Of a stretch of 64,000 nucleotides of DNA, positions 38,527 through 63,018 are shown in pieces; the stretch's first letter is position 1, and each line of letters starts with the position of its first letter. Position numbers and translations under genes: made by a program. The notes under the pieces were generated by a model. It was not told the DNA's origin. It made no database searches and saw nothing but the letters and a program-made list of their open reading frames with translations. Origin of the DNA: Thunnus maccoyii (Eukaryota > Chordata > Actinopteri > Scombriformes > Scombridae); the NCBI RefSeq assembly GCF_910596095.1, contig NC_056550.1, positions 7,464,501-7,528,500 on the forward strand, written 5' to 3'.

Positions 38527-41244
38527 TTAGTAAGGAGCAAACCGACTGTATCCCGCCCGGTATAAACTGGCCTGAAAGAGAAAAGAAAGACAACACAGTC
38601 ATATACTGGAAATAATGAAGTTACAGCAGCATACAAATGTGTTTAAGAATTATGTTGCATTCTGGTATTGCAGTACATCTATAAAATGTCTACATTTAGT
38701 TATACTACAAACCCACAAATGATATATTTATTCTTTTTCAGTCTTTTCAGTTTAATAGTTAATAAGCTCCACGACGAACACAAAAAAGAATTTAACATGA
38801 GCACACACTGTTCAGTCCTCCTCCTCTACTTTGTCTTCTGTCCTCTCAAAAAAAAAAAAAAAAAAAACAGACTACTTATGTAACGTTAACTGCCCTCTTT
38901 AGAAATTCAACAATCTAATATTCCACTCTGGTTGTTTTGTAGAGCTAGAGTCAGTTTTCTCACCATGGCTCCCACTCCGTAAGCAGCAGCAGCTGGAGCT
39001 AAAGCGTGGTATGGATCTGTAGTGTACACCCGGCCGTAACTAGCAACACAAACACAACACACAAGACATGATTTGAGTTTTAAGAAAGTTGTTTTTGTTT
39101 GTGGATTTTTATATGCAGCTGGCACTCCTCTCCTGCTCTAGAAGACACATTTAAAGAAGAAAATGTTTTGAATTAACTATCAGAGTTGAGATGCTTTCAT
39201 ATATTCAATTTATTAAGAATTCAGAATCACTTAATGGCATCATGCTGCCAGTCAGGTACATTTTACACAGCACGTTATCTTCTCCTAAAAACACATTTTC
39301 ATGTTTGAGAGTATTTCTGGCTTTATCTGCTTGCATCCATAAACGCTGAGCCTCTGATGTTCTGTTGTACAGTGAGGTGTGTCTGTGTGTGTGTGTGTGT
39401 GTACGTGTGCGTCTCTGTTTGTTCATGTGTGTCCTGGGTTGAACTCACCTGTCACTGTAGGCTGCAGCTGCGGCGGTTGCTCCGGTTACGGCCGCGGGCT
39501 GGGCGTAGCGATAGGCAGCGGCGGCAGCGGCAGCAGCAGGGTAGCCTCCCTGGAGACACACACACACACACACACACAACATAGCTAACTCACATGCCTT
39601 TGAGGAAGACGGTGGGGTAAGGTGTGTAAATGAGGGGGGGGTTGGGTGGGGGCACATATACAACATACTGACATTTAATTTTAAGAATTCTTCATATATA
39701 TATATATATTTATAGAGGGATCCAAAAGTCTGAGATCACTTTCTGGAAAGTGGTTTCAGAGTTCTGGACCCCTCTATATATTTCCTGGCATTTACTGGAC
39801 GTATACCCCAACTTATATATCATATATATATACACATTTACAACTGAAATACAGTATGTGTCAGTATATTGCATTTCCGTATGGGGAAAGGGGGAAGTGG
39901 TGTGCTGTTGGATGTGGGACAAAAGTGCTTTAACAGTGAGACGGAGAGGAAATTGGACTGTCGAGAATGAGTTAGATTGTATTATTACGACTACGGGAGA
40001 GAAGGGGAGGTAAAAACAGTGGAAGACAAAATGTTCACACAGTTGAGGTCATATAGAAACCTCATTGTCTCATCAGAGCAGAAGATTCAAGTAATGAACA
40101 GATATGTCAAAAAGAACACCTACAGTAGTTCGAGGACACTAGTAGAGATGTATTTATGACAAAAACAGCTTTTCTTAAATTATTATTCGTGTTCTTTCAC
40201 ATGGATTCGGGAGACAGACCAAAGAAAACAGAAAGGTAGACAGGAAATAAAAAGTCACACACACAAACACACCCACGCGAGCCTATACTGACACTAAAAA
40301 AAAAAAAAAAAAAAATCCCTCTCACTGAGACTGCATGCAAATTACATTTCAAACTTACTGAAAAACACAACACCTATGTATTTGGACCTGATCAGAACAG
40401 AGCAAAGCACACAACAGAACAGAAAACCCCCAGCATTCTCCCAGACGCCTGCAATACACGGAGCGGAGGCGGAGGGGGGGCGGGACAGGAAAAAAAAAAA
40501 AACGGGGTTATTAGGGAGAGAGCAAGGCTTTCTGGGTGAGTGTAGGAAGTGGGAGAAGAGGAGGGGGGGGGAAGGAGGGCAGTAATACAGTATGTCTGCA
40601 TGCAGCAGCTGATCAGCACATGCTTCAATAATCATCCCGGGAGGGGTCGGATCAGGGTGGTTAATTCAGGAAGAGACCATGTTCTCCGTTTTAACTTGAG
40701 ACTTCAGAGCATCTCACACCCCAGGCTAACATTGCTGTGAAATCGTAGCCTCCAATTTTAAAAGGAATGATGCTTAAAAAAAAAAGCTCCTTTTTGATGT
40801 TTTTTTGCCGACAAGAGAACAAATTAAGGATTGGTATAATTTTGCTTCAAAACTAGCCAACCACACAAAAGAGACCAGGTTCTCTTTTGAACAAACTGGT
40901 GGGGAAAAAAAATACACACTTAATACAATTTAGTAGTTTAGTAAACAAACAAACAAACCCCTTCCCCACAATCAAGAAAAGTGCACATTTCAGTGAGTTA
41001 GTAGAAAAATAAAGCAAAATTCAAAGCAGTGGTCAATAATTTTTTTTTTTTTTGAACAACTAAAAGATGTTCCAGATCAGATCAGAAGATGATTCATAAG
41101 ATCAGAGCAGGTAGTAGAGTAAAACAATGCACACTGTGGGTTTAGGTGTTGAATTGACCCTACCTGAGGCAATCTGGGACTAAGGACTGAGTCCTGAAAC
41201 ACTAGTCTATAGAGAGAACAGAAACAACCGTTGTCAACCTGGAT

Positions 41245-41276
<32 letters not shown>

Positions 41277-43969
41277 GCATACTCTCACACACTGACGCAC
41301 GCTGCCGCATACGCCCACAGAGCAGCCTTTGTAGTGGTGTGTTAGAGACCCTCTATCCTATCATTAACATTTCACAGCTCTATTTATTCTATTTTTAAAT
41401 CAATACAACTTATTTTGACCCGAGCTGTTTGTATAATGAGGGCTGTTTTTTTTTTGTTTTTTTTGCCGCGACAAAAAAGAATCCTGAGGCAAAAACTACT
41501 CTGTATCATGATGGTTCATGTGTTAATTTGTAACCAGCGGTGCTTCTTCATCGTGGGCTCATTCACCTGTTATGCAGGCAGCTCTGTGCAGCGCATGACT
41601 GGACGCACATGCAGAATCACCCCCAGAGAAGAAGAGCAGGAGAAAGCCGTGAGAAAAGAGGGACAGAGGGTGTGTTGGTGGGAGGTGAGTTTACTTACAT
41701 ATAAGTCTGCGGCTCCGTAAAACCCATCCTGATACACCACACTGAGAGAGGAAGAAAATGCAGAGAAAGAGAGGAGGAGGAGGAGGAGGAGGAGGAGTGG
41801 GAAGGCATGGGGAGATAGAAGGAAGGGGGAGGAGGGGGGATGGTGTAGTGGAGGGGGTGCAAATGGAGTGGTGCACAGTCCCAAAACCAGAGTGGATGAA
41901 GGTCAACACAAAGCAAAAAGAAAAAAGGAAGAGAGAGAGAGAGAGAGAGAAAAAGAGATACAGTAGTTATTTCACACCCATGCAGCATGCAGAGGAAATA
42001 CAACTCCATCTAAGCTCCACAACTGCGACCAAAAACATCCAGCACCGTTATGCATAACAATAGACTCATGGGGCTAATAGATAAAGTTCATTGACTAGAA
42101 CTGAACTGAAATGAAACCATAAAGCGCTATTGTTCCCCAGCTACAAGAAAATCAAGGCAGTAAAGTCCACTTTTAATAGATCATTTGATGAGGAAATGGT
42201 GTATGAGAGGTGCAGCTTTTATTGGCTTTTTAAAGCCGTCGGTGGAGCAGAGATGGAGAGGGGATTTCCTGCAGCCCCCAATTTTATCTTATTTTGCTTA
42301 ATTTGAATGTCATCATAGTAAGCAGCCATACGGCAATTAAGCAATCGATTCTGCTTTGGTCTGAATATTCTAGCAGTCACGACCCCATTAGCCAATCATC
42401 ACAGCACAGCAACAACATGCACAGTACACATACCGAGAGGACAAAAAAAACACAGTAAACATGAAGAATTGTAGCAGATCTGTGAGCAGGGTGACTGCTA
42501 ATGCATGATGACTGAATCTGCTGTGTGTGTGTGTGTGTTTATGCAAATCTACTGATGGCACTATCTGTGTGTTTATTCAAATGAACCTTCAATGGGTGCA
42601 ATCCTATCAGCGTGTTATACTCCAGTGAATAGCTTGTGAACCGACTGACAATGTGCCAGTTGGACTGCTGAAGAGAGTGAAGTGTGAATAATGTTTGAGC
42701 ATGAGAGCTGTATGAGCACAGCTGTATTAAACAGAGACCTGGTCAAATAGAATTTGGAAAAATGCTTCTGAAAATAGCTCTGACGAGGTGATGCTCAACA
42801 GATTTACTGATTTTACCTTAGATCTGCAAATAGATCTGGGACGGCTATGAAGCACGTGAAGTCGTTCGGTTTATCTTTCTTACCCAGGGTAGGCAGGGAT
42901 GGCAGGCTGAGGCACAGCCGCCCGCACGGCGCTGTAGACGGGCCGGCCTCGGCCCCTGAGGTGGGCACCACGAAACGCTGCCGCTGCTGTGGTGGCTGCT
43001 GCTGCTGCTGAAGGGTAGGGGAACCCTGGGACTGGAGGAGGAGGAAGAGGAGAAAGAATAGAGGCAAGGAGGAGATGGGGAATAAAAAAATTTAAGGAAG
43101 GAGGTGGAAAAAAATGAAAGAAAGATGGGGTGACAGAAGATTTAGATGCAGGCAGGGAAAAGACAATGTGAATAGAAACAATAGGGAGCGGCCCGGGAAG
43201 AATGTAAGAAGAAAAGAAAGAGCAAAGAGAGAAGGGAATAATACAACTATAGCCTTCAGGGCTTGATATCAATAAAAAGTGTCTGACAGGAGAAATGCAG
43301 GGCAAGCAGTGCTTTCATATAAATTAAAGACTGGAATGTGACTCAAATTTAAAGCAGGCTGTGGAGACTGTGTTTAGTTCAGGTGAAGGAGGTGGAGAGT
43401 GGTCTTACCTGCGTAGAGCTCTGGTCCATACACGGCCCCCACCATAGGACTCAACTTCCACCCCGCTGACAGTCACAGAGAGATGGGGGGGGGGGGGGGG
43501 GGGTTCATTAATAAGGGCAGTTTACCAAGAGCATTAACTCCTACAGTATATGTCTACTGCACTTGAACATACTGTAGCATGCTGTTGTTATATATCCAAA
43601 CTTCACTCCACCATCACTACAACAATCTCACATTAAAATAAATGATGTGCAAACATTCTAGCAACATCATACCTCATTATGTCTGCATGTTTACAATATA
43701 GTATGAGAAATAAAGAATCAGCCCGTCAGCTGTTAAGAAAGGTCCCCTGCTAATTTCAGACGGTATTCAAGCGGAGCCGTGTTTCTTTCAGCCTGCTTCT
43801 GCTGAGGCTGTTCAACAGAGTTCTACCTTGGTTTCATAAGACAGACTGACTGTGACTCACTCAAAACTACACTGGAAATTGTGATGGAAACAAACAGCAT
43901 CACCAGTATGACCTGAGCAGATACAGCAGGTCAACAAATGGTCTAATTGCTTCATAATGGAACACAGAA

Positions 43970-44000
<31 letters not shown>

Positions 44001-47000
44001 ATATCTACAACACTGCAGCAGCAAGCGGGGCGGTTTTTGTGTTCCAGACTAAATTAACATTACAATTCATGTATTTTCACACATTATGAAGGTAATTTAA
44101 CTTTTTTTTTTCAACGCACAGTTTTTTCAATTCACAGTATTTCAATTTTTACTGAAGTCATTCAAAGGTATCTGAAACCTACACAACACTGAAGTACATT
44201 TTTAAGTTAACATTCAAGTTGATGATAAAGAAAACTGCACTGCATTCACAAATGCAGGAATTCTATTAGCTTAAACTCATAACAGGTATTCACTGATAAA
44301 TTGCTTCAGCTCCACAAGCTTCAACAAACAAACTGAATAAATACATTCTGCTTACTTCATCTAAAAATAGACCGGAGGGGACTGACGTCAGATTCTCAAA
44401 GCACACTCCTTCACTCTTATCTATATTTTGATTTGATAAAGCTGATGTGCTATTTTGTTACATAATCCTGTTATAGGAAGATGATTATTGTAAAGACACC
44501 TTTGTTGGTTTCATCCCTTGAAATTAGTCAACCTGCAAAATATTCTACTCTCAACTGTCGAATGAATCTGAAAAAAAAAGTAAAACTCAACTAAACTGAA
44601 ATTGGTTCGCTGACGTCTTTACACAATGTGGTCTGCAACAGAGGTGAGAACGATAAAGTGTGGCTGCATTATGTATTTAACCCTGCCTACCACTGCCTCT
44701 CCCTGTGTACCCATGCTGTTTGCCTTATTAGTGTGTGTCAGTGTGGCTGTTACCATAAGGCAGTGTGCTGAGAGCCTCTCCGTTAGGGTAGGGGCTGACC
44801 ATTTTCTTGTTAGTCATCACCCTGGCAGTGGCGTTATTCACCTGGGGATGGAGGAACAGGCGGTCAAAGACACAAACACAACAATTCAACAGAGGAAACT
44901 AAAATAGCACATAGACCCAAGACCAAGGCTTATTATATATGCATGTATGTGTGTGTGTGTGTGTGTATGTGTGTGTGTGTGTTTATTTTTACAGTGGAAT
45001 TACATTTAAATTGCCTGCTGCTATGTGCTGGTATTATGCTTGTCTCCATTTTTTGTACATACTGGAGCATATCTGAGGTGGATAATATTATTTTCTGTGT
45101 AGATGTACTGTTACTGGTTCATTAAAAAGGAGAGTAGTGGTGTCATTTAGAGTTATGGCCCACTTACTTGTGTCAACATCTAGTTTACATTTTCTCCAAT
45201 CATTCTAAAATTCATGCCCTATGTAATTAGTCTGTAACCTAACTTGTTTTTATTGTTACAAGGCACGCAGGTGGCCATGTTTGTGTGCAAAAGTGGGCGG
45301 GGGTTTTTGAGTCATCATGCAATTAAAAGCGAGTTGCCCAGTAAAGATTTGGTGATTCATTGTGGAGAGAGAGAGAGATATAAGGGCTGCCATGGGTGAA
45401 ATTGGTTATATTGCTACTGTGCCTACACAGAGAGGCGGGGGTTGGGGCACAGCCTTTTTTTTTTTTTTTTTTTTCATTTTTGGCATGCACAGGTGTGGAT
45501 TTTGTTTAGGTGTGTGTGTGTGCTGGCTGACATTTCAGTCTAATGCTTAGGCCTTTCAATCCAAGATGGCTGATAATCTCCTCTCTGAGCTTCAAAGGCT
45601 CACACTCCGGTCCCTTGATCTATCCTCATCTTCCTTTGATGGGCTTTAAGAGAAGGAGATTGTAGCTTTCTGTAATAACCCATACTGTCCAAGTGTGCAT
45701 TTGAAGCCCTGCATCTGACTGTGTGGCAAGCTAAAGATTAATGACCTTTTGGTTGGATGAGGGGAGAGTGTGTGCATGTGTGACAAAGAAGAGACAGACT
45801 GAGGAATGAGGGTGCTTGTGTGCGCATACACGCTGCACTCTCATTTAGAAGACCATTAATGCCTCCACTGCCATTCGCGTTGCCTCTCAGAACATGACTC
45901 AGTGAATCATGTTCTTCATCTGCCGGGATTCATTCAAATGGAAATGAGGTTTACCTCATTTTTCTCTCATTGCAAATGACAAGGTCAGTAGCAAATGATT
46001 CAATTAGCCTAGCCTGGCTAGCTATCTGACGCAACTGTCCGCGGGTGTCTGAGTGGAGACATTTTGAAATGTAAATCAAGTTAATGAATCAAATTAATGT
46101 CAAATTGTTTGTATCACAGTGAAATTTTGTCCAGACTTGTGAGCAGGTTTATGTTGACTAGTAACAGTTGATGATAACAAAGGGTTTAGCCTATGCTAGC
46201 AGTGGGCAGTACGTGTGTGTGTGTGTGTACAGTATATATATCTGTGTTTGTGTCATGCGCAATTAATGAAATTGGGTTGACAGGAAGACATGCAAATCAA
46301 CAGAGACCAATATGGAAGGCAAATCTCAAAGGGTTAATGATTAATAAAACCTTCAGCCTTTCTCATCCCACTTTTGCCCTCCCAATCCAGCCTGAACAAC
46401 AGACCCGGACAAAATGAAGTCACATTTCCATATGAAACCAAACTTGTGGGGTTTACATACCTAAAAAGAAATATTCAAAAAAAAATATATATACAAAGGA
46501 GAGGGAGAGAAAGAGGGGGTGCAAAAACATTTGTTTGACAAAATTAATAATCATATAACACAGAAATTACACGCAGCCAAATATGGGCGCATCACATGAC
46601 CAAGAGTGAGTAACAAACCAAAAAAAGTAAAAAATTCAGCCAATCAGCAAGCGTCGGATGCAGCATAGAGACCAATCAAAACAATCGCAGCACTCCCACA
46701 TCAAACACATAAGAGACAAAGATGGGACGAGATAAGTTAAGAGGAAGGGATGCAGGTGAGAAGTAAAGAGACAGAGCCAGTCCATGTACAAAAACAGTAG
46801 AACATAAAGATGGAATGAAGAGAAAGAGAAAAAAAGGGAGAAAGTTTTACATGAGCAACACACACACACACAAAAAAAAAAACTAATAACAATTACTGTT
46901 TAAAACAAAAACATATATACCAAGGTGCATCATTCAAATAAAGCAATTAGATTTGGTGACCATTCTCCTGAAAATCTCATTATATGTGGTGGGTTGAGGA

Positions 47001-47092: not shown

Positions 47093-50000
47093 AGCAATCC
47101 TCATTCCCAAAAAAGGAGAGAAATAAAATGAACATGAGACACTATGCCAGGCATTAGAACTGTGTGTCACAAACTAAGACCAGTACACTATGACTATGAC
47201 TACTACTACGACTACTAATACACAGACAATCCACTACAAGGAAACCAAACCAAAAAGAGGAAAACAAAATGGCAGCATAATAAGAGACCCAAAAAAACAG
47301 CAAGGTAAACCCCATATCGGTTTAGAGATGCATATGGTTACACAACACTGGCTGATTTGATAAGTTCTTCCTAAACACATTTTTTATTTTTACATAAATT
47401 AGCAAAAGATCCCCAATGAAAAGTTCCAGTTTCATTTAACAATACTGCAAATGAAGATAAAAACTGTTATTGCTAGTCTAGGTATGTACATTTGGTCAGT
47501 TTTTGTCTAAGAAGTCAAGTCCTTTAACTGTCTCATCCTAAATCTGCAGTCACATGAAATGTGTCCAATTGACTCGTATTTGTCAAACTATGCTAAAAGC
47601 AGACAGGCTCAATAAAAAATGAAGAAATTCAAAACCAGAGCGGCGTTATATTGCCCTGCAGCTCGGGGTCTGCATTCACTCAAAGCAAAATCGTAGGCAG
47701 CATAAGGGAGCAAAGCTTCATATCATTTCTGTTGATTTTTTTATTAATCAAGAAAATGAGTACTACATACATTAAGTCCAAATGGAGAATTAATCAGATG
47801 GATTGTGGATAGCTGTGTCATTGCATAGAGGAGGGTGATTACATTCGGTCATTCCCAGTGAGGTGTTAATGACATGGTGGAGGGTGGGGTGGGGTGGGGA
47901 GGGGAGAGGGGGGGGGGGGCAGGGGGGGGAAAAATATTACCGCTGAAAGATCCAATCTGTTGAAGGTGCTGTGTCCGTCTGTCTGTGTGCCTGTGATACT
48001 GTGCGTGTTGTAGCTAAATATAAAATACTAATATTGCAGCTTCACAATATACTGTAAATAATACAGTATATAGTACTAAATGCCCATTTCAGGGGTGGGG
48101 TGGGGAGGGGGATCAGTTCAGTGATAGATGTTTGTACACAACTTACCGTTGCCGTAGAAACAGCGAGTGGTTACCGTGGAGACTGACAACAACACAAAGA
48201 AGTCGTCAGGGAAACAGAAAAAATATAATAAATAAAGGAACAAATAATCCTAGTAACAAAAGAAACCTAAATGTCCCCCCCATCTTCCCCCAAAATAAAA
48301 AAACCTGATAGCAGCAGTGTTACAGCTCAGGACAGAATATAAGAGAAAGAAAGAAAGAAGGGAGGAAGGAAAGGGAGAGAGGATGCGAGCTCTCAATGCT
48401 TTAACAGAGCTCGGAGCATCATTACAACAATCAGACCAGTGACAGGAAGAGTATTCGGTGCTCTAGAGTACAAAAGACTTGATACAGGAGAATGGAGATA
48501 TGGGGGCAACCTTGCCTTAACCCAAACACTAGCCTATTGAATGCACAGTGAAGGACTGGAACACCTCCAAGGAAAAGTCAGAAGAGCAGATACAAATGCA
48601 CACCACCCTCCATCATAAGAGCAGAATAGCAAAAGGTTGGTTTAACGCTGTCTGGGTCTGTTACAGTCAAAAGGACAAGTGGAGGTATTTTGGTTAGATG
48701 TTACGAGAGAGGACTCATTCTGGTGTGGTTAAAGTTAGGCCACAAGGGAAGAGAGTGTATTTGGAAATTGGGCAGAATGGCTATAATTTCCAGTTTTTAA
48801 CCAGTCACCACAAAAGAACATACTAAAGGCAATAGTCAAACGATGAAAGTAAGACAAAACAAACTAAATGATAAAAATGGAAACACAATAAGGCAGTCAG
48901 ATAATGAAAAAAAAGAGAGTATTAGAGTTAGAAAAACAGCTGTAGTTTAATTTCAAATAAACACAAAATGACAGAAAAACAAACTTGACTGGCAACGAGA
49001 GAATGAAGGGGTAAAGGAGGAGAAAGAATGGAGCCGACACAGAAAGAAAGACAGAGGGTTGGAAAGGGCAAAGTACAAACTCTCTTTCCCCTTTTCTTTC
49101 AACCATCTCTACATTTTCACTCATGTACAGAAGCAAACACACACATGGATACTCGCACATTTCATTCATTGGATCTTTTCTGGGGCAAATCATGCAGTAA
49201 CAGAAAGTTTCAGTAACAAAACAGGACCGGTCAAATCCAAAGCTGGGGGGGGGGGGGGGGGGGGGGGGGAGGGAGACTGGGACACAAGGAGCTGGTAAGC
49301 CTTCACCTCAGGCCGTCGCCAATCCGACAACTCACAATCAAGTTCTTATCAAATCTAACTTCCTCCAAATAGGAATAAAACTAGTGAATAAAATCCTCAA
49401 ACAGGCTGATAATGTTTATGGGAATGGCTGCTATAACGTCCAGGCCGAAGTGAGCTGAAGGCCAACTGTGTCCCGCTGAGGAGAGCGTGGCGCCGCGGCA
49501 GCACTGGTTGGTGAGTGTGCATGGTCAAGCATGCACAACCACAGGCACGACTTCTTCTCATCCATTTCACCACACACATCCATGCAATGATGATCTGTTC
49601 TCACTAGCCGCCCCACCTTTGATGAGACTAAGGCATGCAGAGCTTCACCACTTGTGACAGCGCGCGTACACACACGCACACACACACACACATACACACC
49701 TCAGCTATTCTGCGCTGTTGTGTTCAAATGTCTGACTAAAACTCTGCGCTGCGGAGGAGCCGTCACTTTCCATAACACTCCGGTCACACAGATCTACCAC
49801 AAACGCACAACTTTAGAGCAAGAGTTAGTGAATGGGAGTGTAAAGGGTTCGGCATGGTCTCTGTACCTATCCACGCACCCTCTCCTGTGGCCGTGTGCAC
49901 ACTGCCTGCACACACAGATGTGTATATTTCTAGGACAGCAGAAAGCTACCTAGAAGGTCTATGTAAAACTAATGTCGGTAAACGTGCAGATTCCTTTGTA

Positions 50001-53000
50001 TAAAGCTGATTTTTTTGCACGGATTAAATTAAAAAAACACATGTAGACACCTTCATCTTGACAGTCTGGCTCCCATCTCCCATAGATGAAACAATGAAAC
50101 TATCAATATTATAATTTAGCCAGCGTACATCTTCATGTTTTGCATATTTCCTTCAGTGGACACTCAAAACAAATGGAGAAACAGGTGGGGACCAGGCCAC
50201 AATCATCAGAGCCATGTGGGATCTGCACACCAGCCGTAACTTCAGGATTTTGTGATCAAGGTTTGAGGCGAATGAGACCATGCAGGGACCCTAATCCACT
50301 CTCTGAACAGCCAGTAATTGCAGCATACTGTAAGAATACTGTAAGAATCACATATGTGACTTAATGGTTTTGGAGGGATTTTCAGTTGTTAGCTTTGTCC
50401 CCACAGTCGAATGACATTTATGAGTGTAGACTGTTTAAACTGTTACGTTAGGGCGTACAAACAGTCACAGACGCAGCCATGGATGGGTGGAGATGCACTG
50501 AGGTGTGTATGTTTGTGAGTGCATACTAAAGATACACACGGTCACACCTATATATAGGCCTATAGGACTCTATAGTCTATATATAGAATGAATGGTGATG
50601 AGATGAGTTCACAGAGAAGCAGGTAGAGACAAAGTGAATTGTAGTTGGGCCACTTACATGGATACATTGGAAGCGCACAGGAAACTGACTTCTTCAAAGC
50701 GCAGAGTTTTATTCCAGACAAAGAGAGGTACAGTATAACTTTAAGCACAACAATTCTCTATCTATTTCATATAGGCTACATACATGCACACTATGGGCAA
50801 CTAAGCTACGAGTATAACTACTGACTAACAACCCATTGGCATGCACCAACAATAAGAAATGTCAGCACTGGAGTTACATACAGCATATGTTTATAAATCA
50901 TTCAGTCAAAAATCATTCTAAAAAACGAAGAATTCAGCTATTCAGCCCTATTTTGCAATGAGCGCAAAAAGACTATGAGGCACTGATTTCATGCTAACTG
51001 AACAAGTAAAGGAAGTTAACAGTCCCATCACCAAAACTAACTTAACAAAACAGCTGTACAGAATAAACATGCAAGAAAAAACATCCAACTGTCTGTAGTA
51101 CAGCCTCAGTTAGGCTTCCATATCAAAATACTAACCATGCACACTTAGGCTACATCAACTAAACTCATGCCAGTGGATAGCAGTGAACTGCAGAGTCACA
51201 CACGATAAATATTAAATATTTAATAATATAGAACCATGGTACACAGTAGGCCTATATTTCAGAGTTTCTGAATTTTAAATATATGATTACTCTAATTATT
51301 TTTTGCTATCTTCATTTCCGATAACATAGTTCAACAAACTCTGAAATGATATGACCAATTAAAGGGATAGTTACTGCTGCAACATCTGTGAGACAGGAGA
51401 ACTGCCAGATAGCATTGCCTCAAATAGAAATGTTCGGCCCCTTTCTCCTCAGTCGAAAGAATGCGTAAACACAAATCCATGATTTGTCCTGCGCCAGACT
51501 TTTGTCTCTTCAGGCCCATGCACCATAAACAGACAGAGAGAGAAACACTCTACAGACTCCTGCTGCTGGCCCACCATGCGGCTGATACATGACTCTCTAC
51601 AGCCCGACACCACTACTCGAGTACATGCAGAGTGACAACTGAAAAAGAAAGACAAACGGCTCGCTGATTAATAAAAGTGACCGACATCATGCAAAACTTT
51701 GGGCAGAAACACAGAATCGGGTTAAAGCAATGCCAGGGACAACACAGGTCGTTGACTGATGCAGGTTAAATTGGCTCCATCAGTATCCATTCAGCTTGCT
51801 GATTGACTGAAGGTGGAGGTGGTGGAGAGAGTATGTTGCACCAGTGGATGCAGGTGGCTGTCTTTCATTCCTGACCACACTGCAGGAGAACTGAGAGTAC
51901 AGAACTAAAAAAAGGGTCCAGCCAGCCTCATCCATCATGCAGGGACTGACTCTCACACACCCACCCACACACACACACACACATATACACCATAAGGAAA
52001 TCACCACAGTAAGCCCATGCAGAAAACCTGGCTTACAGTGGCTTGGGTCAAGAGATCCAAAAATGGACAACCGGCTGATTGAAACCCCAATTAAAATAAA
52101 GAAGAAAAACTGCTTTTAAAAAAAAAAAATCAGCACATGCTTCAGTTAAAAACAAACACAATATTCAATCAAATCAAAATAAATTAACCTGAACGCACAT
52201 TGACTTTACATTAAATCTCAAGCGTACAGCTCTTTGGTAAGAATCCAGACTTCCATAAAGTGAACATGCGTCAGTGTTGCTGTGATTCCCAGCATGCTAC
52301 TGTTGCACCAGGAGCCATAAGCTTGTCACAACCACTTAGCCACAGCACCGGGAGAGAGGAACACAGAAGGATTTCTACACTAGGGAAGAAAATAAGAGCA
52401 TCTGACAGCAATCTGCCATGCATCATCCTTTCACTGCGTTCCTCTCGTGCCCTCCGGTGCCGACTACACAGACATCATTCCAATTGTTGCAGAAAAAAAA
52501 ATTGTAATATCAGTGTGGCTGCTAGTTGCACATCAGTGGAGGAAAAAAAAAAAAAAAAAGGTGAAGAGGCACAACAGCTTAATGTGAAAACAATGCTGCA
52601 GAGGAAAAGTACCCAGCATGCCTTATGTATTGTTCTTGCACCCCCAGTCATTCCCACCACAGAGACAACAAGAAAAAAAGGAGCAAACAAGTCGTTTTAA
52701 ATTGAAAAATTAAACACATATTGCAGAGGACCAGGGAGGAGTGGGATACCAGTGGGCTGCATCAGAGCATATCACTAAAGGGAGGATGGGAGCTAGCTAG
52801 CAGTCAGTGATCAAGCAGAATTACGATGTGAGCACAGAAAGAAGACAGAAGAGAGGACGGAGAGAGAGAGAGACAGAGAGGAAAATTACCTCAATCTTAC
52901 GACCTTCCACCAGTGTGCCGTGGAGCTTTTCCCTGGCTTTCTCTGCGTCTGCGCTGTTCTCAAATGTCACAAAGCCAAAACCCTGTGGTACACAGCAGAG

Positions 53001-54285
53001 GTTAAAGAGGTTGATGGTGATTGAGGGGCACATCATGAGGGATTGTGGAGAGCGAGAGGAGAATCTGTGAATTCGAGGCCAGTACAGCATTCTGACATTG
53101 TTTAATAGATGATGTAGTTGCAGAACAATTGATTCCCTCGTGTGGCGAGCTGGTACCGCGTCACAAAGCGTCACATTTACACAGGGAAATTATACATAGT
53201 GGGAATTTACCGTCAACACATGGGATGCAAAAATGGCACTTACCTTTGAACCCCTCTCATTGAAAATAATCTCTACATCCAGAATCTTCCCAAATTGCTG
53301 AAAATAAATATGAGGAAAGAAATTAGCAAACACATATAAGCAAAGAAAGCAATTACGTAACATCTTTGAGTTATTCTTGGTTTGGCTTTACTGCAAAATC
53401 AAAAGCTTCTGACACTGAAGTACAACTGCTTCGCACTAGGGGTCACTATTATACAAAAGACAACTTTCAACATGTCAGTGTGTTTCTTTCCATCCCTTTG
53501 CCTTGAACTCTGCTCTGTCCCCTTTTTTTTTTTTTTTTTTTTTTTAACGCTCACTTTGTCGCTCATGCTAACACACTGACACACATAGCCAACTGCCCCC
53601 TCAAGCATCGAGAGAACACCCATGAGTGTCTTTCCCTTTGTGCGAGTTGGACTCTTTTGTCTGTATCTACACCCCACCCCTACCTAGTGAGTTGGCCCCT
53701 CCGCGAAGAACCCGGGGTGTCTAGACTGATTTATTGATCCTGTTAAAAATGAGGCCCCACAACATTCCCAAACTTCTTACCCCAAACATCTGCCTGAGAT
53801 CTGGGTCCCGGAAACGGAAGGGGATGTTTGAGACGTGGAGGCGTTTGGGGGTTCCTTTAGCCTCTGCGGAGTCTCCTGCAGAGCCTCCTGGTCCTACACC
53901 TCCTGTACCACACTGTACACCCGCCTCACCCTGGGACGTCTCCTCTGTCTTTCCCTGTGTTGCGCAAAGAGAAAAGAATACGTTTTATTCCACATATACC
54001 ATTACCACTTACAACTCAATATCCTAGAAGAACCAGTTAACTAAACTACCAGTAAAGGCTTCATCACCACGCTGTGCTTACATTGTTGTTGTTGTTGGTG
54101 GTAGCAGTGGTGGCTCCATTAGCACCAGCCCCTACCTCTGCTGTACCTTGGCCCCCAGCACCAAACATGGCCGCAGGGCCAAACTCCGTCCCCGGTAGCC
54201 CGTTTTGAGGAGGGGGTGGAGGAGGGAACGCTGTAAAGGGTGGGGCCACCAAGCCCTCCTGTCCTCCTGTTGAATCCTGAGAGCC
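38527..54285 (-). CDS. rbfox2: RBFOX2-type RNA-binding splicing regulator (5' end incomplete)
   Basis: Eleven exons, all with GT-AG sites and matching phases, read from high to low: 54285-54082, 53954-53781, 53297-53244, 52982-52890, 44841-44754, 43465-43409, 43031-42884, 41741-41699, 39549-39449, 39039-38964 and 38571-38527. They give 360 codons plus stop. The protein binds UGCAUG in pre-mRNA to control exon choice in the nucleus. The N-terminal region is Pro- and Gly-rich (PPPPPPQNG). The single RRM starts at [20 protein letters not shown] and includes RNP1 [10 protein letters not shown]. The Ala/Tyr-rich C-terminal region has [14 protein letters not shown] and ends [39 protein letters not shown] and [11 protein letters not shown] match RBFOX2 better than RBFOX1 or 3. 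The N-terminal start is not in these exons; a donor at the right window edge may belong to the preceding exon. RBFOX1-like paralogues of fish remain possible. Confidence 0.9.
39556..39580. repeat. (CA)n microsatellite next to the RBFOX GGYP exon
   Basis: Direct CA repeat a few bases upstream of the acceptor of the 39549-39449 exon. On the transcript strand it is a (TG)n tract directly before CTCCAG. A (GT)n tract of similar length lies at about 39380-39404, 45 nt beyond the donor of the same exon, so the exon is flanked by complementary repeats. Confidence 0.85.
39711..39778. repeat. snap-back inverted repeat with 4-nt loop
   Basis: Arms 39711-39742 and 39747-39778 pair at about 27 of 32 positions around the loop CTGG, flanked by AT repeats. 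Both arms end TATAGAGGG(A/G)TCCA. It lies in the RBFOX intron between the M43-type exon and the GGYP exon. Likely a MITE or foldback remnant; a pre-miRNA cannot be excluded. Confidence 0.6.
41164..41206 (-). CDS. rbfox2: RBFOX M43-type (muscle) alternative exon, diverged
   Basis: Exactly 43 nt between an acceptor (CTCTATAG) and a donor (CTCAG then GTAGGG), with the same entry and exit phase as the neighbouring B40-type exon. It encodes [14 protein letters not shown]. The mammalian muscle exon encodes VVYQEPVYGNKLLQ: Val2, Gln4, Val7, Leu12 and Gln14 are identical, and Tyr3 to Phe, Glu5 to Asp and Lys11 to Arg are conservative. Size, phase, position and pattern all match, but the divergence is high. 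It should be mutually exclusive with the upstream exon. Confidence 0.6.
41244..41272. repeat. (CA)n microsatellite
   Basis: CA repeat in the intron between the B40-type and M43-type exons, about 40 nt upstream of the M43-type acceptor. It reads (TG)n in the transcript. Confidence 0.9.
41699..41741 (-). CDS. rbfox2: RBFOX B40-type (brain) alternative exon
   Basis: A 43-nt exon encoding [14 protein letters not shown]. In mammals the neural form of this exon is 40 nt and encodes [13 protein letters not shown]; this one has one extra alanine codon, so phase is kept. TGCATG lies 86 nt downstream (41608-41613), and two more lie about 240 nt upstream (41979 and 41986). Confidence 0.85.
42885..43030 (-). 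CDS. rbfox2: RBFOX Ala/Arg-rich exon body
   Basis: The exon spans 43031-42884. It encodes [20 protein letters not shown], then [20 protein letters not shown], then QPAIPAYP. The RGRGR motif and flanking tyrosines are the family's C-terminal hallmark. The intron before it is only 377 nt, and no exon for the family's optional ASSFQADVSL-type insert was found in it. Confidence 0.9.
43485..43503. repeat. homopolymer G/C tract at a splice acceptor
   Basis: A run of about 19 G on the + strand is a C run in the RBFOX transcript, 20-38 nt before the acceptor of the 43465-43409 exon, where it forms the polypyrimidine tract. Confidence 0.9.
43972..43996. repeat. (CA)n microsatellite
   Basis: CA repeat in the RBFOX intron between 43465 and 44754. 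Confidence 0.9.
44754..44841 (-). CDS. rbfox2: RBFOX VNNATAR exon, extended form
   Basis: Encodes [20 protein letters not shown] then GEALSTLPY before a donor ATG then GTAACA. Family members normally join PYxNG directly to WKLxPVVG. Here the place where the usual donor would fall (AACG then GAGAGG) has no GT, so the frame runs on for 27 nt, in phase. The exon joins the next one to read [15 protein letters not shown]. Confidence 0.75.
44945..44982. repeat. (GT)n microsatellite
   Basis: GT repeat with a TATG interruption, about 100 nt upstream (in transcript terms) of the VNNATAR exon acceptor. It is a (CA)n tract in the transcript. Confidence 0.9.
44985..48146 (-). other. RBFOX intron, left part
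   Basis: Part of the 8-kb intron between 52890 and 44841. It holds a T run at about 45457-45474, (AG)-rich tracts at about 47025-47095, and sparse TGCATG sites (45484 and 46289 on the transcript strand). No exon recognised. Confidence 0.5.
47876..48112 (+). repeat. G-rich tracts (quadruplex-prone)
   Basis: GGGGTGGGGTGGGGAGGGG at about 47885-47903 is followed by long G runs to 47929, and a second GGGGTGGGGAGGGGG block lies near 48096. Four or more G4 runs are in register on the non-transcribed strand of RBFOX. Confidence 0.8.
48147..48182 (-). other. candidate 36-nt cryptic or poison exon
   Basis: Between the RRM exon and the VNNATAR exon, a minus-strand segment is bounded by TTGTTGTCAG and a near-perfect donor (CAACG then GTAAGTTG). 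Spliced in phase 0, it would read three codons and then TAA, truncating the protein just after the RRM. There is no evidence beyond the splice motifs. Confidence 0.2.
49191..52422 (-). promoter_or_regulatory. rbfox2: cluster of 15 intronic UGCAUG (RBFOX-binding) sites
   Basis: CATGCA on the + strand (TGCATG in the transcript) starts at 49191, 49530, 49581, 49634, 50279, 50783, 50840, 51068, 51136, 51517, 51624, 51688, 51936, 52016 and 52417. The opposite-strand motif was seen once in the same span (49518). Chance expectation is about one per 4 kb per strand. The cluster begins about 470 nt downstream of the 93-nt RRM exon, where RBFOX binding would normally promote inclusion. Confidence 0.7.
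49245..49269 (+). repeat. homopolymer G tract
   Basis: About 25 consecutive G on the + strand inside the RBFOX intron, next to the left end of the TGCATG cluster. The length in the assembly is likely unreliable. Confidence 0.85.
52890..52982 (-). CDS. rbfox2: RBFOX 93-nt RRM exon
   Basis: This exon encodes 31 residues, from [10 protein letters not shown] to VEGRKIE, which include RNP1. The length of 93 nt is the family's conserved size. In mammals the equivalent exon is skipped under control of RBFOX itself, which gives a protein unable to bind RNA. The intron that follows here carries a dense cluster of UGCAUG sites. Confidence 0.92.
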
Positions 54286-54899
54286 CTGCGGGAGCGGGGA
54301 GGGGCGAGGAGGGAGAGGAAAGAAGAGAAGGAGACAGCTTAGCATACATACTCAGTAAGCCTTTCACAGTGGCTGTAGCGTCCTGATGAAAGCAGAATGA
54401 AAGGGTTAAAATCCTGCCTATTTAATTTCTCTCTCTCCTTCACCACTCAGTCACTCTCCTATTCCCTCTCTGCCACACTCTCCCCCTCCCTCTACCTCCA
54501 TATCTCTGACAGGCATGTGTTTTCAGTCAGCCGACCATGAAATATTTACAGCAAACACATCCATTATTAAGAGTCAGAAAATTCGATACACAGTTTGAGA
54601 TACAAAGATGCTTATAGGATGGATGGACGGACACGCAGAAAAATAAATACTAACCGTGACATGTTAACCATGACGTATTTACAGCTACTGGTGTATTGTG
54701 TGAATACCTGTTCCTGGATTTTTGGATTTCGTTTAGAGGCCATCTATAATTCAGATTAAATGTGTATCAGCCGGGACGTTGTTGCCTCAGGTACTATTTT
54801 CTCTGCACTGTTACAACTGTATCAGCGGTGGTATCATCTACAGATTCTTTATAGCTGTGCTGCTGCTCCAGCCCATACTCCTTATCTTATATGTGTGTG

Positions 54900-54938
<39 letters not shown>

Positions 54939-56875
54939 GTGTGTATGTGTGTAGTGACTCTGCAATATTGCTTGCTTTAATCATTTCACCCACACTGAAG
55001 GACATCTTGGACTAAGTTTCACAAAATCCATTTCCAGTAAAGAGAGAGAGAGAAAAAGAAAGGGTGAGACAATGGATGGACAAGGAGATGCAGGATGAGT
55101 GGAGAAGCTGAAAGAGAAAGAAGGAGGCCAGTGCGTGTGGGGGGGGGGGGTCAGGGCTGCTTCTTCCACACCAGGCCAAGCAGGATGACACACAGCATCC
55201 AACACCATTAACCACTGGCCTGGTCTCTGCCATGGGCTGGATCTGGGCTGGGTGACGCCTAGAGACACCAAGTCTCCAGACAGCCTTTTTAATTAGACGG
55301 AGTAACTAAGATGCGTTGCCGCAAAGCAAATGAGCTCTGTCCCTCTCCCTCTCCCTGTCTCTCTAATCCTATAGCTTGACTGCTCACTGTTCTTCTGCAT
55401 TGACAGCCACGCTGGCTGTTAACAGCCAGCTGAGGCTTGAATGCCCATCTGCAAGACAGACGGCTTCTGGGGCCTGGGCCCAACTAGGCATCAGAGATGG
55501 CTGCGTAATCCAAAAACAGGACAGAAAAATCTGTGAGATTCGTCCTCTGCCACTCTCATTGTGGTAAGGCTGAATGTATGTTAGGAAAGAATGTGTGAAA
55601 GCTGATTTTGTTTTACATCTGCTATGGTTTCTGTCACCTAGCGATAAAAAAAATGGAACCACCGAAAACCTCAAGACGAGGAGCCATTAAAATTCATTGG
55701 TTAGGATTTAGCTTACCCTGGGAAGGTTATATCAAAGCCTGAGTGTGCTTGTTATGGCATGTGAGCCTATAAACATGCAGTAGCTTGTACTCAGCCACTA
55801 AAGGGTGTGTCCTATAGGCATATCCCTGCCCAGGGATGAGTCACACACCCCAAAAACACTCAGCAGAGGTAAAAAAAAAAAAAAAAAAAGGGAGAGAGTG
55901 ACAAAAGAATAAGATTATGATTAGATAAAGAGGGAATTTGGTCTAATCATGCTTTAACAGGAGTGTTTATCTACATTCACCTTTTTTAGCTTTTAATGTC
56001 TTACTGAGAGAGAGAGCTGGTCAGTGAGTGTGTCTCCCAGAGCTGAGATATTTCATTTGCAGGCTTGTCATATGATAAACTCTGATCATCTAGTGTTTTT
56101 CCAGAGACTTCTTCAGGGCAACAAAGAAGCAGCTCATTGTTTATCAAAGCAAAGTTAGAATTTATGCTTACTCTGTCGTTCCATGGCTCTTAGCTAAATA
56201 AAGCAATACCAAGCTTAGCCTGGATATCATTAAACAAAGCTCCACATCAAACCACAAAATCATTAATGAGAAGAAATATTCAAAAGGTGTTATAATAATC
56301 ACATTTATTTGAGGGTTTGTCGTGATTTAGCTGACCAAGTATAAAAAGAAAATGAATCATGGAAGAACTAATAATCAGATAGGCGAATGGCAGCTTGCAG
56401 TGGATTAAGATCAGAAGTGAAAGCAGAACAACCACACAGGCATTCCTGACCCGCTGACTGAGGAGCAGCACTGCCCTACATGGCAGCATCATATGGTCAA
56501 AAGTAGAGAGGACGAGGAGAGGAGAGCGAGGAAAGAAGAAATAATGGAAAAAAGAAAAGGGGGGCTCGACAGGAGGGCAAAGGGGATTATGGAAAATAAT
56601 GACACGCTCTATTAGCGTTGTGTCTGTTCTCGACATAAACTTCCACACTGCATTTTGACATTGTGAGATAAGATACAGAATTGGCTGAGTCTATGATACA
56701 CAAGAATAAAAAGTGTATGCTTATCATTAAAACTGCATGAAAAGCAATCTGAGCAGAGCTGACAACAGAGTAGATCAGGTATCAACAGACATGTTTTCTA
56801 ATATTACAAAAAGAAAAGGACCATCTGGAGTAGGACCTATTCATCCATGCTGTTTCACTCTCACCTCATGCGCGC

Positions 56876-56905
56876 ACACATACACACACACACACGCACA
56901 CGCAC

Positions 56906-56938
<33 letters not shown>
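56876..56938. repeat. (CA)n microsatellite, interrupted
   Basis: CA repeat with CG and TA interruptions, read directly. Confidence 0.9.
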
Positions 56939-58339
56939 GCAGAAGCACAGTTGTGTTACCTGAGACACCATATGTTTTTCCACACACGGAGAAGAAGAGG
57001 GGGAGAAGAAGCCTTTTCACGGCAAAACCTTTCAAGCGTGCGTCTATGTCTGCTGACTTTAGCCTAACCAGCCCAAGTGAAGCACACACTAGCCGCAGAA
57101 ACACAGACTGAGTGGCCGAGTGGTGATGCTACTGAAACTGTAAGTTTACTCATCAATCACACAAACTCATGACCATTTGTCTATCCTAACTATCTACTGT
57201 CTGCAAAGTTGCCTGGCTGAAATACTCTTTACAGCTTCTTCTCCCTCTGCAATCCGTCTCTTTTCTTTTCCAGTGGTTGGAGAAGTATGCCTCCGTTCAC
57301 CCCCCCTCCTTTTTCCCCTTCCCTATTCGTTCTTGCCTGCCACGCTTGATGAAAGCCAGAGGGAGATTTTTTTTTTTTTTTTTTCTCTTTTAAAACCACC
57401 GACACCCGCCCCTCAAGTCACTCAAAACCTCTGCTGCACTGTGATGTCCATCAAAGCGCAGGCCACTGCCCATCTCCTTATACGGCTGCCTGTGTCTCCT
57501 TCCTGCCAATCAGATTACGCTAAACTTGTCCCTGAGAGGTACATCAGTAGTTAACTGGTTCAGAGGACACGTGGATGTTTATGTGGCAAGAATAATAACT
57601 TAACAGAGAACTTAGTTGAAGCTCTTACTGTACACTGTATTTAGTACACAATTTCATACTAGCAACAGTTATTTCTTAAAATTTAACAAAGTAAAAGCTT
57701 TTCCCTAAAATCACAAATATATGTGTCGTCATGCAACATCAGGGATCTTATAATGAGCTTTAATTTAATATAATGTAATTTAATTTAAACTACAGGGTAA
57801 CACAATGCTGTCTGTCAGTGTCAGCAGCTCTGTGACTGCTGAGATCTGTGACATACAGCTCGTCTGTTTTTGACTGTTCTGATCAGCATCAGCATCAGCA
57901 TCATTATCATAATCACACTGACAGCTCTTTCTCTCACACTCTGACTCACCTTGGGCAGGACAAGATGGCCTAAATATATATATTAGATATGTATATGTAT
58001 ATAGATATAGATAGATATATTCCCCTGCTAAATTCATGCTGGTTTCAGTTTTTGTTTCTTTTGATAAACTACAACACAGCAAAGTATGTTTTTAATGAAG
58101 TTGAATAATTAAAAATAAAACAGATGATAGGTTGAGTATTCAGTAGCGACTTGGCTTGCATGTGCAATTACAGTTGTAACAGTATAACTAAAGTACAGCA
58201 ACACTCACAAGGCTGTCGTCAGTTTCCTGGTTTTACTAGATGGCTACTAATAAAGAGCGACAGGGCAGAGAGAAGGGGAAGACATGTAAGCACAGTCACA
58301 AGACAGATTCAAATTGAGAACGCTGCATCCCTAGAAAGT

Positions 58340-58600
58340 CATAATTATTCTCTTTTGTCTATAAATATCAGAAAACGGTTTAAAATGTCCGTTATAATTT
58401 CCCACACAGCCCACAGCAGACATCTTTAAATGTCTTATTTAGTCCAACAACAAACAAAACTTAAATATTCCGTTGACTTTCATACATGACCATAAAAGAA
58501 TCAAATCATCACATTTGAGAAGGTGGAACGATTATTCGATTGTCAAAACAGCTGCTGGTTAATTTTCTGTTGATCAATAAATCACTGCAGCTCTGCTACA
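58340..58600 (+). repeat. dispersed teleost repeat, second copy
   Basis: TTTGTCTATAAATATCAGAA, CCACACAGCCCACAGCAGAC, ATTATTCGATTGTCAAAACA, GTTGATCAATAAATCACTGC and a final AGCTCTGCTACAAT follow the same order as the copy at 31325-31605 in the GPRC5 gene. Confidence 0.6.
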
Positions 58601-59229
58601 ATATTTCAACAAAATGAACTTAGTGCAAACATACTTATCCTCAGCCTGTCTGCATGATAAATGACGCATGATGTTTCGTGAGTCAGAAGTATGACTACAT
58701 CTGTAGCACTGATGTACTCACCATCTTCCAAATGATGATTATTTCTCAACTTTTTTTGTGTCACTGCAACTCTTATATCATCACAGACTGACATTTACAC
58801 TTATGGGATTTCCCTGACCTTTAATCTACCCTGATTTACTACAGAATGCAGTCAAGTAGAACAAGCTTTTAACCCTACTGCCAAGAATCCTTAACACCAA
58901 TACTACAGACAGCAAGGATCACTGAAAATCTGCAGACCAAGCCAGTGCAGCATCTGTATGCGTTAATATGCTTTCCACACCGTCACTTCAAACTGTTTTA
59001 TTCCATCCACGAGAAAAAATCTTGCATTACTAATTCTGAGTGGATGCAGCGAGATGGGGAATTTGTACACTGGCGACAGAAAAAGTTTAAATGAAACTAG
59101 AAATACTGCCTTGAGGTTCGATGCCTCTGTCCGACTGCTCAAGTTGGAGTCTACATCCATGTCTGTCCAGACTCATAATATTTGTAGTGAGGACTTTGAA
59201 GGAATTTAATAAAATCACCACAGTTTCAA

Positions 59230-59690
59230 GGTGAGCACCCAAGATTAGTGTCACCAATTCAGTATCCGACCAAATGTGAAATAATCTCCACTTCTGTTCC
59301 TGAGTTATGGTGTTGAATAATGGCCAGAAAAGTGTTTTTGCAGAACATTATGTCACAGTGAGGTTGACCTTTGACCTTTTGGATATAAAAATATCATCAC
59401 TTCATCATTTCATCCTATTAGACATGTATGAAACTTTGTCATAATTAGCGTATGAATTCTTGAGTTATGGCCAAAATGTGTTTTGTGAGGTCACAGTGAT
59501 GTTTGACCACCAAATTCTAATCAGTTCATCCTTGAGTCCAAGTGGACGTTAGTGCTAAATTCAAAGAAATTCCCTCAAGGCCTTCCTAAGATATCGTGTT
59601 CACAAAAATGGGATGGACGGACAGACAACCGAAAAACATAATGCCTATGGTTATAGGTGTCGCCGGCGCGGAGGCACAAAAACGCAGTGG
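59230..59690 (+). repeat. dispersed teleost repeat with internal periodicity
   Basis: Repeated blocks of GAGTTATGGxxxxxAAxxTG, GTCACAGTGA and TTTGACC recur about 120 bp apart. They are followed by AATCAGTTCATCCTTGAGTC, CAAGTGGACGT, AATTCCCTCAAGGCC, AAGATATCGTGTTCAC, a GGACGGACAGACAACCGAAA block and GTCGCCGGCGCGGAGGC. I recognise the order from other fish genomes. Confidence 0.65.
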
Positions 59691-60329
59691 CACTGACTTA
59701 CTGCTGCAGTCTAAGCTAGTGTACAGTGTTACACTGCTGTTTATCATGCAGGAGCAGGTAAGCTAGGAGATACTGCATACATTTAGGGCTCTGCTGCATC
59801 GCATCTGTGCATCACATCACTTGCAATGCGCCTCTGTGTGTATATGTATGTATGTGTGCTTTGGTGCGATGCGCAGACTGTTTTCACACCTCAACCTACT
59901 GCACACAGCCTTGGGCAGAGGCAGTTAGAGCAGCATTAGTGGTGGACAATATCATCATGGCTATATGTGCAGTGGGAGAACAGTTAACCCTGAGGTGAAG
60001 CAGTGTCAAACAGTGCATTAGGCCACCAATACTGCACACTCTGCACTTTGGTTTACTGCTAAATCTATGGTAACAGCTTAGAGTGGGTTTGTGCTGTAGT
60101 GAGATGGGTGGTGGTTGTGACCTCCTTGACATTATCTGTCACTTTCTAATGTGAGATTTGCAACGCAGAGGAATAACCATAATCCCACAGGATTCCTATG
60201 CTAAACAAGGCTAAATATGCGGTGAACTTGAGATGCATGTGTACACCTTACACAGCAAAACACACATACACTTGTCAGTGTGTTATGACAGTGAAGTTGC
60301 ACAGTTCTGTCAATTTTTCATATGTGTGC

Positions 60330-60645
60330 AGCTATTCTCCCACAAACAGACGTGTCCACAGAGACCTGAGAGTAACACAATTCTTCTTCCTGTGGACGCC
60401 TTCCGGTCCAATTGTCGGCTTACGTGATTGGCCACCGCAGCATAACGTTGGGTTGCGTTTCAGCAAAAGTTGATTCTGGATCAACTTCTTACTCGACAGC
60501 CGCTGCGGCTTTTTGCAGCACCCCATGCAGTCCCCACTCCCACCGTGGGGACTGCTAAATGTACTACACCCTTTCAAATGAATGGAAGGACTGCCGTTTT
60601 TCATGAATTGTTGCACTTGGTGTGAATGCAGCCTAACACTGTGCA
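60330..60645. mobile_element. possible MITE remnant
   Basis: A block of distinct base composition with a palindromic TTGATTCTGGATCAA centre, a GTCCCCACTCCCACCGTGGGGAC stem region and an end reading TTGGTGTGAATGCAGCCTAA, typical of fish short DNA elements. Boundaries were not defined. Confidence 0.25.
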
Positions 60646-62292
60646 GGTAGGTTAGAGGAATGATGCAACACCTCTGGACATCTACAAATACACACAGAGA
60701 GATAAGAATGTTTTCACACAGCAAATTAAACTGACATTTTTAAACTGTGTAAGAATAAGAATATGACATGCTCAGTGCTCTGTTGTTTGACAAGAATAAT
60801 AAGTGACCTCCACCACTTGCCAGGTAGTCATTGTTATGCATATTTAAAATGACAGGCTATCCCCCCATACAGCTATGGACTGTTAATACCTGATGTTAAG
60901 CAGAGCACAGACATCCAGTGTAATAATCAGTTTCAGCACAGACAGGACAGCGGAGTCTGTTCACTAATTCACCTGCTTCTGCTGCATGTGTTTGTTGACA
61001 TCAGCCTGATATCTGAGGACAGCTGGCCAGCTAGTGTTAGCTAATGACTGAACAAAGTGATCAGTCCACTCTCATGGCTTCACCTCTCTAGACAATGCCA
61101 CATCAACAAACACAAACAAAGAGTGCAGATCAGTGGGAAGAATATTTTTTCAGTCTATCCTTTTAGGGATTGCCAGAGCGAGCTAGCCACTTGGAGTCTG
61201 GAGACATCCTGAGTCATGGCAGTTCTGTAAACTGTGGCAGGTGTGCACTGTTTATAGGACTATTTAGAGTCAAGAATGCTAATATAGTCAGAAATCGACC
61301 TTTTGTGGTGTTACAATAACTACATTTATACTATGTTGTCATGGACAAAACGCTGTCTAGCGTGCCCTTTGCTATAGCAAATAAGACATACTTACTGACT
61401 GCAAAATGGCAACAGTGGTAACTTTAATGTTGACATCAAGCAAGACTTGACTAAACGCCAACTCTTATCCACAGTGAATGCTATAGAGACCTGTCACCCA
61501 AAATAGAGAGCAGTGCCATAAATTTTACAGAGGACACGGTGACTGATGGTGTGTCACCTTTAAAGTGCATTCCCACATGGAACTAACCCCCCCCCCCCTC
61601 CCCCGCCCGCCCGCCCTGACACCCTTCGAGTTACAACCGTCATCCTGCATTTGGCATCATTCTCTTTGAAGAGGAATATTGTGTTTAGCTTACAGCTGCT
61701 CTAGCCTGCGGGGGAGTGAAATAGAGGAGGGGAAACGGGAGAAACAGAGAAGAAACACATGACAAAGGGAAAAAAAATTGAGAGAAGGAAAGCTCGTGTG
61801 TGAAAGAGAGACTATTAACTGAGATTTAAGAGGTCTTGGGGGGAGGTTCTACCTGTGGTTGACTGACCAATCAACTCCAACACAGCAGAAGCTTAGGAGC
61901 AGTCTGCGTGATTATTATGTGCATCACCATATCATCTTACATGCACAGTACTGCAGTATAGATCTGCATTTATGGTCAATCTGTCTTAGTCAATGCACTT
62001 GAGCCAACCCTGCTCCTGACCATTGCTTACTGCTTGGCTTTGGTGTGAAGTGGTGAACATGCATTTCTACAACAACTATAGGGTGAGGGTATACAATTTT
62101 TATCTTATTGCTATAATCTAACAATAGATATTGGTCTTGACTTGTATCCTCTCACCCGTAATGTCTCTATTGATGTCAGCTGTTGCAACTTTTCAGGTGC
62201 TAACCAAATAAAGACAAATATTCAACAAAGCTACAACAGTAGTTCCTGTTGAACCTTCAATATAAACACTGCAGCAGTGTTTTTCAGTGTGT

Positions 62293-62805: not shown

Positions 62806-63018
62806 CAGTGAGTACTGTTCTTAAAAGTGCTCACATGTCTTTATGAAATATACAGATTAGGCTATGAATGGGTCAAATGAAGGTAGCGAGTATGTGTGAA
62901 AGTGGTATCTCTTATGGCAAAGGTGCAGCAGCGTATTGCTTAATAGTAACTGTTTGTCGAAGACTTTGTTGTGCCATAGGAGAGGGGGAAGTAGAAAAAC
63001 ACACCTAGCAACAACTGG

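Follow-up and report, generated by a model that had tools for sequence, protein, structure and literature searches.

We analyzed a 64,000-nt stretch of the Thunnus maccoyii genome (contig NC_056550.1, positions 7,464,501 to 7,528,500; hereafter the window), in which an RBFOX gene of the rbfox2 type runs on the minus strand. The 8.05-kb intron directly 3′ of its 93-nt RNA recognition motif (RRM) exon carries an array of the RBFOX motif TGCATG, with 15 copies on the transcript strand against a single one on the opposite strand, and about 1 kb past the array lies an exon-like unit with an in-frame stop that is conserved in the closest paralog of the same genome. We propose, at about even confidence, that RBFOX acting through the array tunes the splicing of the RRM exon against that of the stop exon, with negative feedback as the net effect. 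An initial annotation of this DNA had reported the array, and both its counts and coordinates and its placement in the RBFOX gene's own intron, after the 93-nt RRM exon, proved exact. The conserved stop-carrying unit is an element that it had missed.

The TGCATG array in an rbfox2-type intron

The RBFOX exons were placed by tblastn with RBFOX query stretches, together with splice sites. Ten minus-strand exons were mapped, spanning the coding sequence from the beginning of the RRM through the C terminus; the map excludes the N-terminal exons and the 5′ boundary of its first exon. When joined, the ten exons form a single open frame ending in SRFAPY. Pfam detected RRM_1 and Fox-1_C in the product, and its RRM is identical to the RBFOX1 structure PDB 4zka at 82 of 85 positions. 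The gene is of the rbfox2 type, as judged by its C-terminal sequences. The 93-nt exon codes for the second half of the RRM, and its skipping keeps the frame open. Coordinates of all features are collected in Table 1.

The array lies 468 to 3694 nt downstream of the last base of the 93-nt exon, with 14 of the 15 copies more than 500 nt away from it. The looser motif GCATG stands at 21:6 in the array region (transcript:other strand, as in all ratios below), and the whole window holds 75 TGCATG on both strands together. A comparable bias was absent elsewhere in the gene, where TGCATG counts 9:6 in 53900-64000, 6:4 in 38530-44766 and 3:2 in the remainder of the array intron. When the array's strand ratio was compared by Fisher test, p was 0.018 for the remaining gene sequence within the window and 0.003 for all remaining window sequence.

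The initial annotation had put the expected count at about 0.8, which assumes equal bases; with local dinucleotides the mean rises to 2.46 (standard deviation 1.57), and 1000 dinucleotide-preserving shuffles gave a maximum of 9 against the 15 observed. Markov models of order 1 and order 2, built from either the region or the complete intron, never produced 15 or more copies in 2000 runs each, nor did an order-3 model built from the intron in 2000 runs. When the order-3 model was instead built from the array, and had thereby learned the motif, 8 of 2000 runs reached this count. The top TGCATG count per 3.2 kb was 11 in 300 simulated 64-kb windows, taking either strand, and 6 in 20 random 10-kb stretches of the tuna's own genome (40 strand-regions). 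When each non-palindromic hexamer was taken in its best 3.2-kb window, 19 had at least 12 copies and no more than 2 on the opposite strand; TGCATG is the sole one among them with more than two letters, the other 18 consisting of one or two. Its 18 one-mismatch neighbours are balanced between the strands, with totals of 27 (transcript) and 28 (other). The borders of the array were chosen by the motif itself, which flatters the density somewhat; the fixed bin 48001-52000 holds TGCATG at 13:1. These results confirm that the strand-specific excess of TGCATG is real.

Flanking sequences of different copies match one another at an identity of 0.257, no better than those of random positions (0.259). 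An origin of the array as a decayed repeat is ruled out by these unrelated flanks and by the balanced one-mismatch neighbours. GU-rich hnRNP M pentamers are enriched in the array, at 45.2/kb on the transcript strand compared with 10.2/kb antisense (28.5 and 9.3/kb after masking of (TG)n tracts) and with 21.9-36.1/kb on the same strand of five other stretches. Poly-U (hnRNP C) pentamers occur at 23.5/kb, and the other stretches span 19.2-77.1/kb. No RNA bridge between the RRM exon and the array was found, the best helix scoring 28 against 27-36 in 12 simulated controls. Near the distal end of the array the plus strand carries a run of about 29 G (C on the transcript) at 49245-49273, adjoined by a high-scoring 3′ site at 49242.

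RBFOX action on TrkB requires deep (T)GCATG clusters (Tomassoni-Ardori 2025, PMC12435732). By the definition given there, which starts a cluster from 500 nt holding at least 4 (T)GCATG and then extends it, the transcript strand has a main and a second cluster at the array (Table 1) and a further cluster of 5 at 62741-63418. The opposite strand has two clusters of 4, at 383-834 and, within the array, at 49519-49856; because clusters of 4-5 occur elsewhere, also on the other strand, such small clusters carry little meaning. The array resembles the deep clusters in reaching this density on the transcript strand and in its GU-rich (hnRNP M) surroundings. Unlike them, it lies in the RBFOX gene's own intron, starts less than 500 nt from the exon, has no enrichment of poly-G pentamers and places its copies in unrelated flanks. 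The array thus counts as a deep (T)GCATG cluster by number, but not by every reported enrichment.

Paralogous introns and the conserved exon-like unit

A protein search of the genome (782 Mb in 54 contigs) gave 34 matches at E 0.001 or better, from which six rbfox genes were read: the window gene, C2:38.0, C18:0.76, C18:26.3, C20:27.9 and C10:15.1. The remaining weaker matches are presumably other RRM proteins, and in viral contigs 600 pattern matches yielded 0 confirmed relatives. In the closest paralog, on C2, the corresponding intron has GCATG at 13:2 with 4.3 expected (Poisson P 5e-4, binomial 0.007), the count covering 3880 of about 3911 nt. The GCATG sites of the window and C2 introns do not align with each other. 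The other four genes were counted in the first ~1.5 kb after the 93-nt exon, where GCATG stands at 2:0 in C18:0.76, 5:5 in C18:26.3, 4:2 in C20 and 0:0 in C10. For TGCATG, C18:26.3 reaches 4:3 there (P 0.006) and C20 reaches 3:1 (P 0.04), without a clear strand bias in either gene.

With simple repeats masked, two blocks align between the window and C2 introns at E 1e-4 or better (Table 1), and in a DNA search of the genome each was found in these two introns only and not in the other rbfox genes. Block 1 contains the exon-like unit, which had ranked first of four in the intron before the C2 paralog was known. The unit and its C2 counterpart differ in length, each being a multiple of three, and each reads SPR and then TAA when joined to the RRM exon. 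Their splice-site cores are identical, uninterrupted identity extending over 25 nt that span the 3′ site and 21 nt that span the 5′ site; the sites score 4.6 (3′) and 6.2 (5′) in the window and 1.7 and 6.2 in C2. Units this strong are rare: with scores of at least 4 (3′) and at least 6 (5′), the 64 kb contain 4 when both strands are scanned, among them the genuine 54-nt exon, and 0.3% of transcript-strand 148-nt frames contain one. Block 2 has no 3′ site scoring at least 5 and no 5′ site scoring at least 3; it holds two GATTGG motifs. No fish rbfox2 stop exon or array was found in the open-licence literature searched, judged by titles and the beginnings of abstracts. A different exon-like unit, inside the array at 51575-51638, has a TGCATG 52 nt downstream; without a match in the C2 intron, it was demoted as a relevant exon, though not excluded.

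In the Fox system, binding elements reportedly lie at the splice sites of the RRM exon. None was found at the splice sites of the 93-nt exon in either the window gene or C2; in the window, GCATG is absent from both splice sites on both strands and from the 300 nt upstream (0 and 0 on the two strands). The C18:0.76 paralog (C18:761274-764375), which we take to be rbfox1-like, carries TGCATG copies that start on or beside positions -36, -8 and +2 relative to its 93-nt exon, overlapping both splice sites, which is the mammalian layout.

Proposed feedback and competing explanations

In the proposed mechanism, the array would serve as a platform for RBFOX on the rbfox2 pre-mRNA, perhaps with hnRNP M as a partner from the large assembly of splicing regulators (LASR). 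It would sit between a skippable RRM exon and a conserved stop-carrying cassette exon, and bound RBFOX would feed back on the choice between the two. Inclusion of the stop exon would truncate the protein directly behind the RRM, removing the C-terminal domain, and expose the mRNA to decay. Joined with skipping of the RRM exon, it would end the protein inside the RRM; skipping alone would give a protein missing half its RRM. The sequence itself shows the array, its strand bias, a similar lean of the C2 intron and the conserved unit with its stop; that RBFOX binds, that the unit is spliced, that decay follows and in which direction the effect runs, we infer. Speaking for the proposal are the motif excess and bias beyond chance, the dense hnRNP M pentamers, the lean and the conserved unit shared with C2, the mammalian decay exon in the corresponding intron and the need for deep clusters at TrkB. 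The net effect is taken to be negative because the mammalian Rbfox2 result was followed: in mammalian cells RBFOX3 leads to skipping of Rbfox2 exon 6 and inclusion of the stop-inducing exon 6*, which lies in intron 6 and is a target of nonsense-mediated decay (PMC3126832). A -93/+73 isoform in rat brain is described as the same event (PMC5577181).

By analogy, the arrangement may work like known RBFOX autoregulation. With exon 6* (Dredge and Jensen 2011, PMC3126832) the unit shares its place in the intron after the RRM exon, the premature stop and the kind of gene; exon 6* is conserved in mammals and birds, the exon-like unit in the two duplicates. We do not file it as an exon 6* ortholog, because length and frame differ. 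With Fox RRM-exon autoregulation (Damianov and Black 2010, as described in PMC3126832) the arrangement shares the 93-nt in-frame exon and RBFOX motifs in a flanking intron, but here the splice sites lack the motif and the array lies far downstream. Since splice-site motifs were tested and are absent, the array is not filed as autoregulation of the splice-site type.

Several observations weigh against the proposed feedback. RBFOX acting from downstream usually favours inclusion and from upstream skipping, as quoted in PMC8455679, and this position rule points the opposite way for both exons; by it, the array would repress the stop exon. Exon 6* is 71-74 nt long and shifts the frame, with stops in exon 7 (PMC3126832), unlike the in-frame TAA in units of 36 and 48 nt. 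In the window, 1853 nt separate the stop exon from the nearest GCATG downstream, and the C2 unit has a weak 3′ site. The score thresholds by which such units are rare were picked once the unit was already known. TGCATG in the C2 intron shows no significant excess (4:1, 1.8 expected, P 0.12). The largest GCATG count among 80 random 5-kb strand tiles was also 13 (8 among 200 random 2-kb tiles), so the C2 count alone falls within the genome's range and supports the array only weakly. By predicted pairing, the sites of the array are less accessible than 120 random positions (0.28 vs 0.42), and poly-G (hnRNP H) pentamers occur at 2.5/kb against 3.2-6.4/kb in other stretches.

The position rule also leads to a possible, if tentative, alternative: that the array favours use of the RRM exon while holding back the stop exon, so that RBFOX would support its own productive splicing. 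In both duplicates GCATG lies downstream of the RRM exon and upstream of the stop exon, the 5′ site of the RRM exon is weak, and in Ptbp1, RBFOX sites 3′ of the poison exon promote use of that exon (PMC4801060). The opposite outcome in mammalian cells speaks against such a positive switch, as do four GCATG 250-512 nt downstream of the C2 stop exon and the distance of most TGCATG from the RRM exon, beyond 500 nt, where the rule is judged less certain.

It is rather unlikely that the conserved unit is a DNA element and not an exon, with the array acting on something else. Block 2, with no splice sites of adequate score, shows that conservation in this intron is not confined to exon-like sequence, and the half-sites of the unit presumably resemble RFX motifs. 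At the centre of the unit's conservation, however, lie an AG, a pyrimidine-rich tract and GTAAGT, all in transcript orientation, and the two copies have the in-frame stop in common.

We doubt more strongly the earlier interpretation, RBFOX-dependent skipping of the RRM exon through the array, if read as the array's sole action, with the conserved unit uninvolved. Mammalian regulation through this exon is known (PMC3126832), the Rbfox2 93 exon holds rank 9 in a genome-wide RBFOX target list cited in PMC5577181, and skipping here is in frame. Of the autoregulation claimed, the RBFOX gene, its own intron, the real strand excess and the in-frame skippable exon stand. The more specific idea, RRM-exon skipping driven by the array, is unsupported: the sites lie far downstream, on the side that usually promotes inclusion (PMC8455679), GCATG is absent at and upstream of the exon, unlike in the rbfox1-type paralog, and the intron also contains the conserved putative stop exon. 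That the array is a chance or compositional product of a TG-rich transcript strand (GTGTG 32:3) is very improbable; the array-trained order-3 model does reach 15 but the low-order models, the hexamer ranking, the neighbour hexamers, the random genome regions and, weakly, the C2 duplicate are all contrary.

We tentatively suggest that in the rbfox2 duplicates an autoregulation by blocking of splice sites, whose motifs are still present in rbfox1, may have been replaced by a distal array plus a conserved in-frame stop exon, with the array kept by density, as its sites turn over and its bias stays. Steady RBFOX levels matter for splicing in brain, heart and muscle. If true, two duplicates would keep site bias and stop exon in one intron despite the turnover of sites, and selection at the level of the array would become testable by ordinary comparative genomics. 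The introns would also offer a compact minigene (less than 9 kb from the window, about 4 kb from C2) for asking whether distal RBFOX arrays activate or repress.

Feature coordinates and neighbouring observations

Table 1. Features of the array intron and its surroundings; positions refer to the window unless a contig is given.
Feature	Position	Strand	Remarks
54-nt RRM exon	53244..53297	-	tblastn and splice sites
261-nt intron 5′ of the 93-nt RRM exon	52983..53243	-	no GCATG on either strand
93-nt RRM exon	52890..52982	-	weak 5′ splice site: position weight matrix 3.1, U1 duplex -6.7 kcal/mol
TGCATG array	49191..52422	-	15 on transcript (minus) strand, 1 on plus
Main (T)GCATG cluster	50783..52621	-	17 GCATG, 10 of them TGCATG
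Second (T)GCATG cluster	49191..49638	-	4 sites
Exon-like unit within the array	51575..51638	-	64 nt, in-frame TAG, strong 3′ site
Block 1, conserved with C2 intron	48093..48240	-	74%, E 2.6e-21; also aligns unmasked
Exon-like unit with stop	48147..48182	-	36 nt, in-frame TAA (SPR*) if spliced after RRM exon
C2 counterpart of exon-like unit	C2:38015552-38015599		48 nt
Block 2, conserved with C2 intron	46560..46709	-	72%, E 1.7e-17; also aligns unmasked
Following coding exon	44754..44841	-	88 nt, translation ends LPY

An Rfam search of the window gave 0 matches. At 30079-31254 on the plus strand lies a 392-aa open reading frame with a Pfam 7tm_3 match, presumably a GPRC5-like receptor, with four relatives elsewhere in the genome. 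A common neighbour as a sign of whole-genome duplication was considered and rejected: the 7tm_3 relative on C2 lies 6.7 Mb from the C2 rbfox gene, which leaves the age of the C2 duplicate unproven.

The mammalian counterpart of the 88-nt exon that follows the array intron is 61 nt long and thus 27 nt shorter, and the C2 gene has an extension similar to that of the window exon. Further along the gene, a 43-nt exon at 41699-41741 on the minus strand is similar to the RBFOX-regulated 40/43-nt exon, and TGCATG occurs on both sides of it, at 41608, 41979 and 41986 on the same strand.

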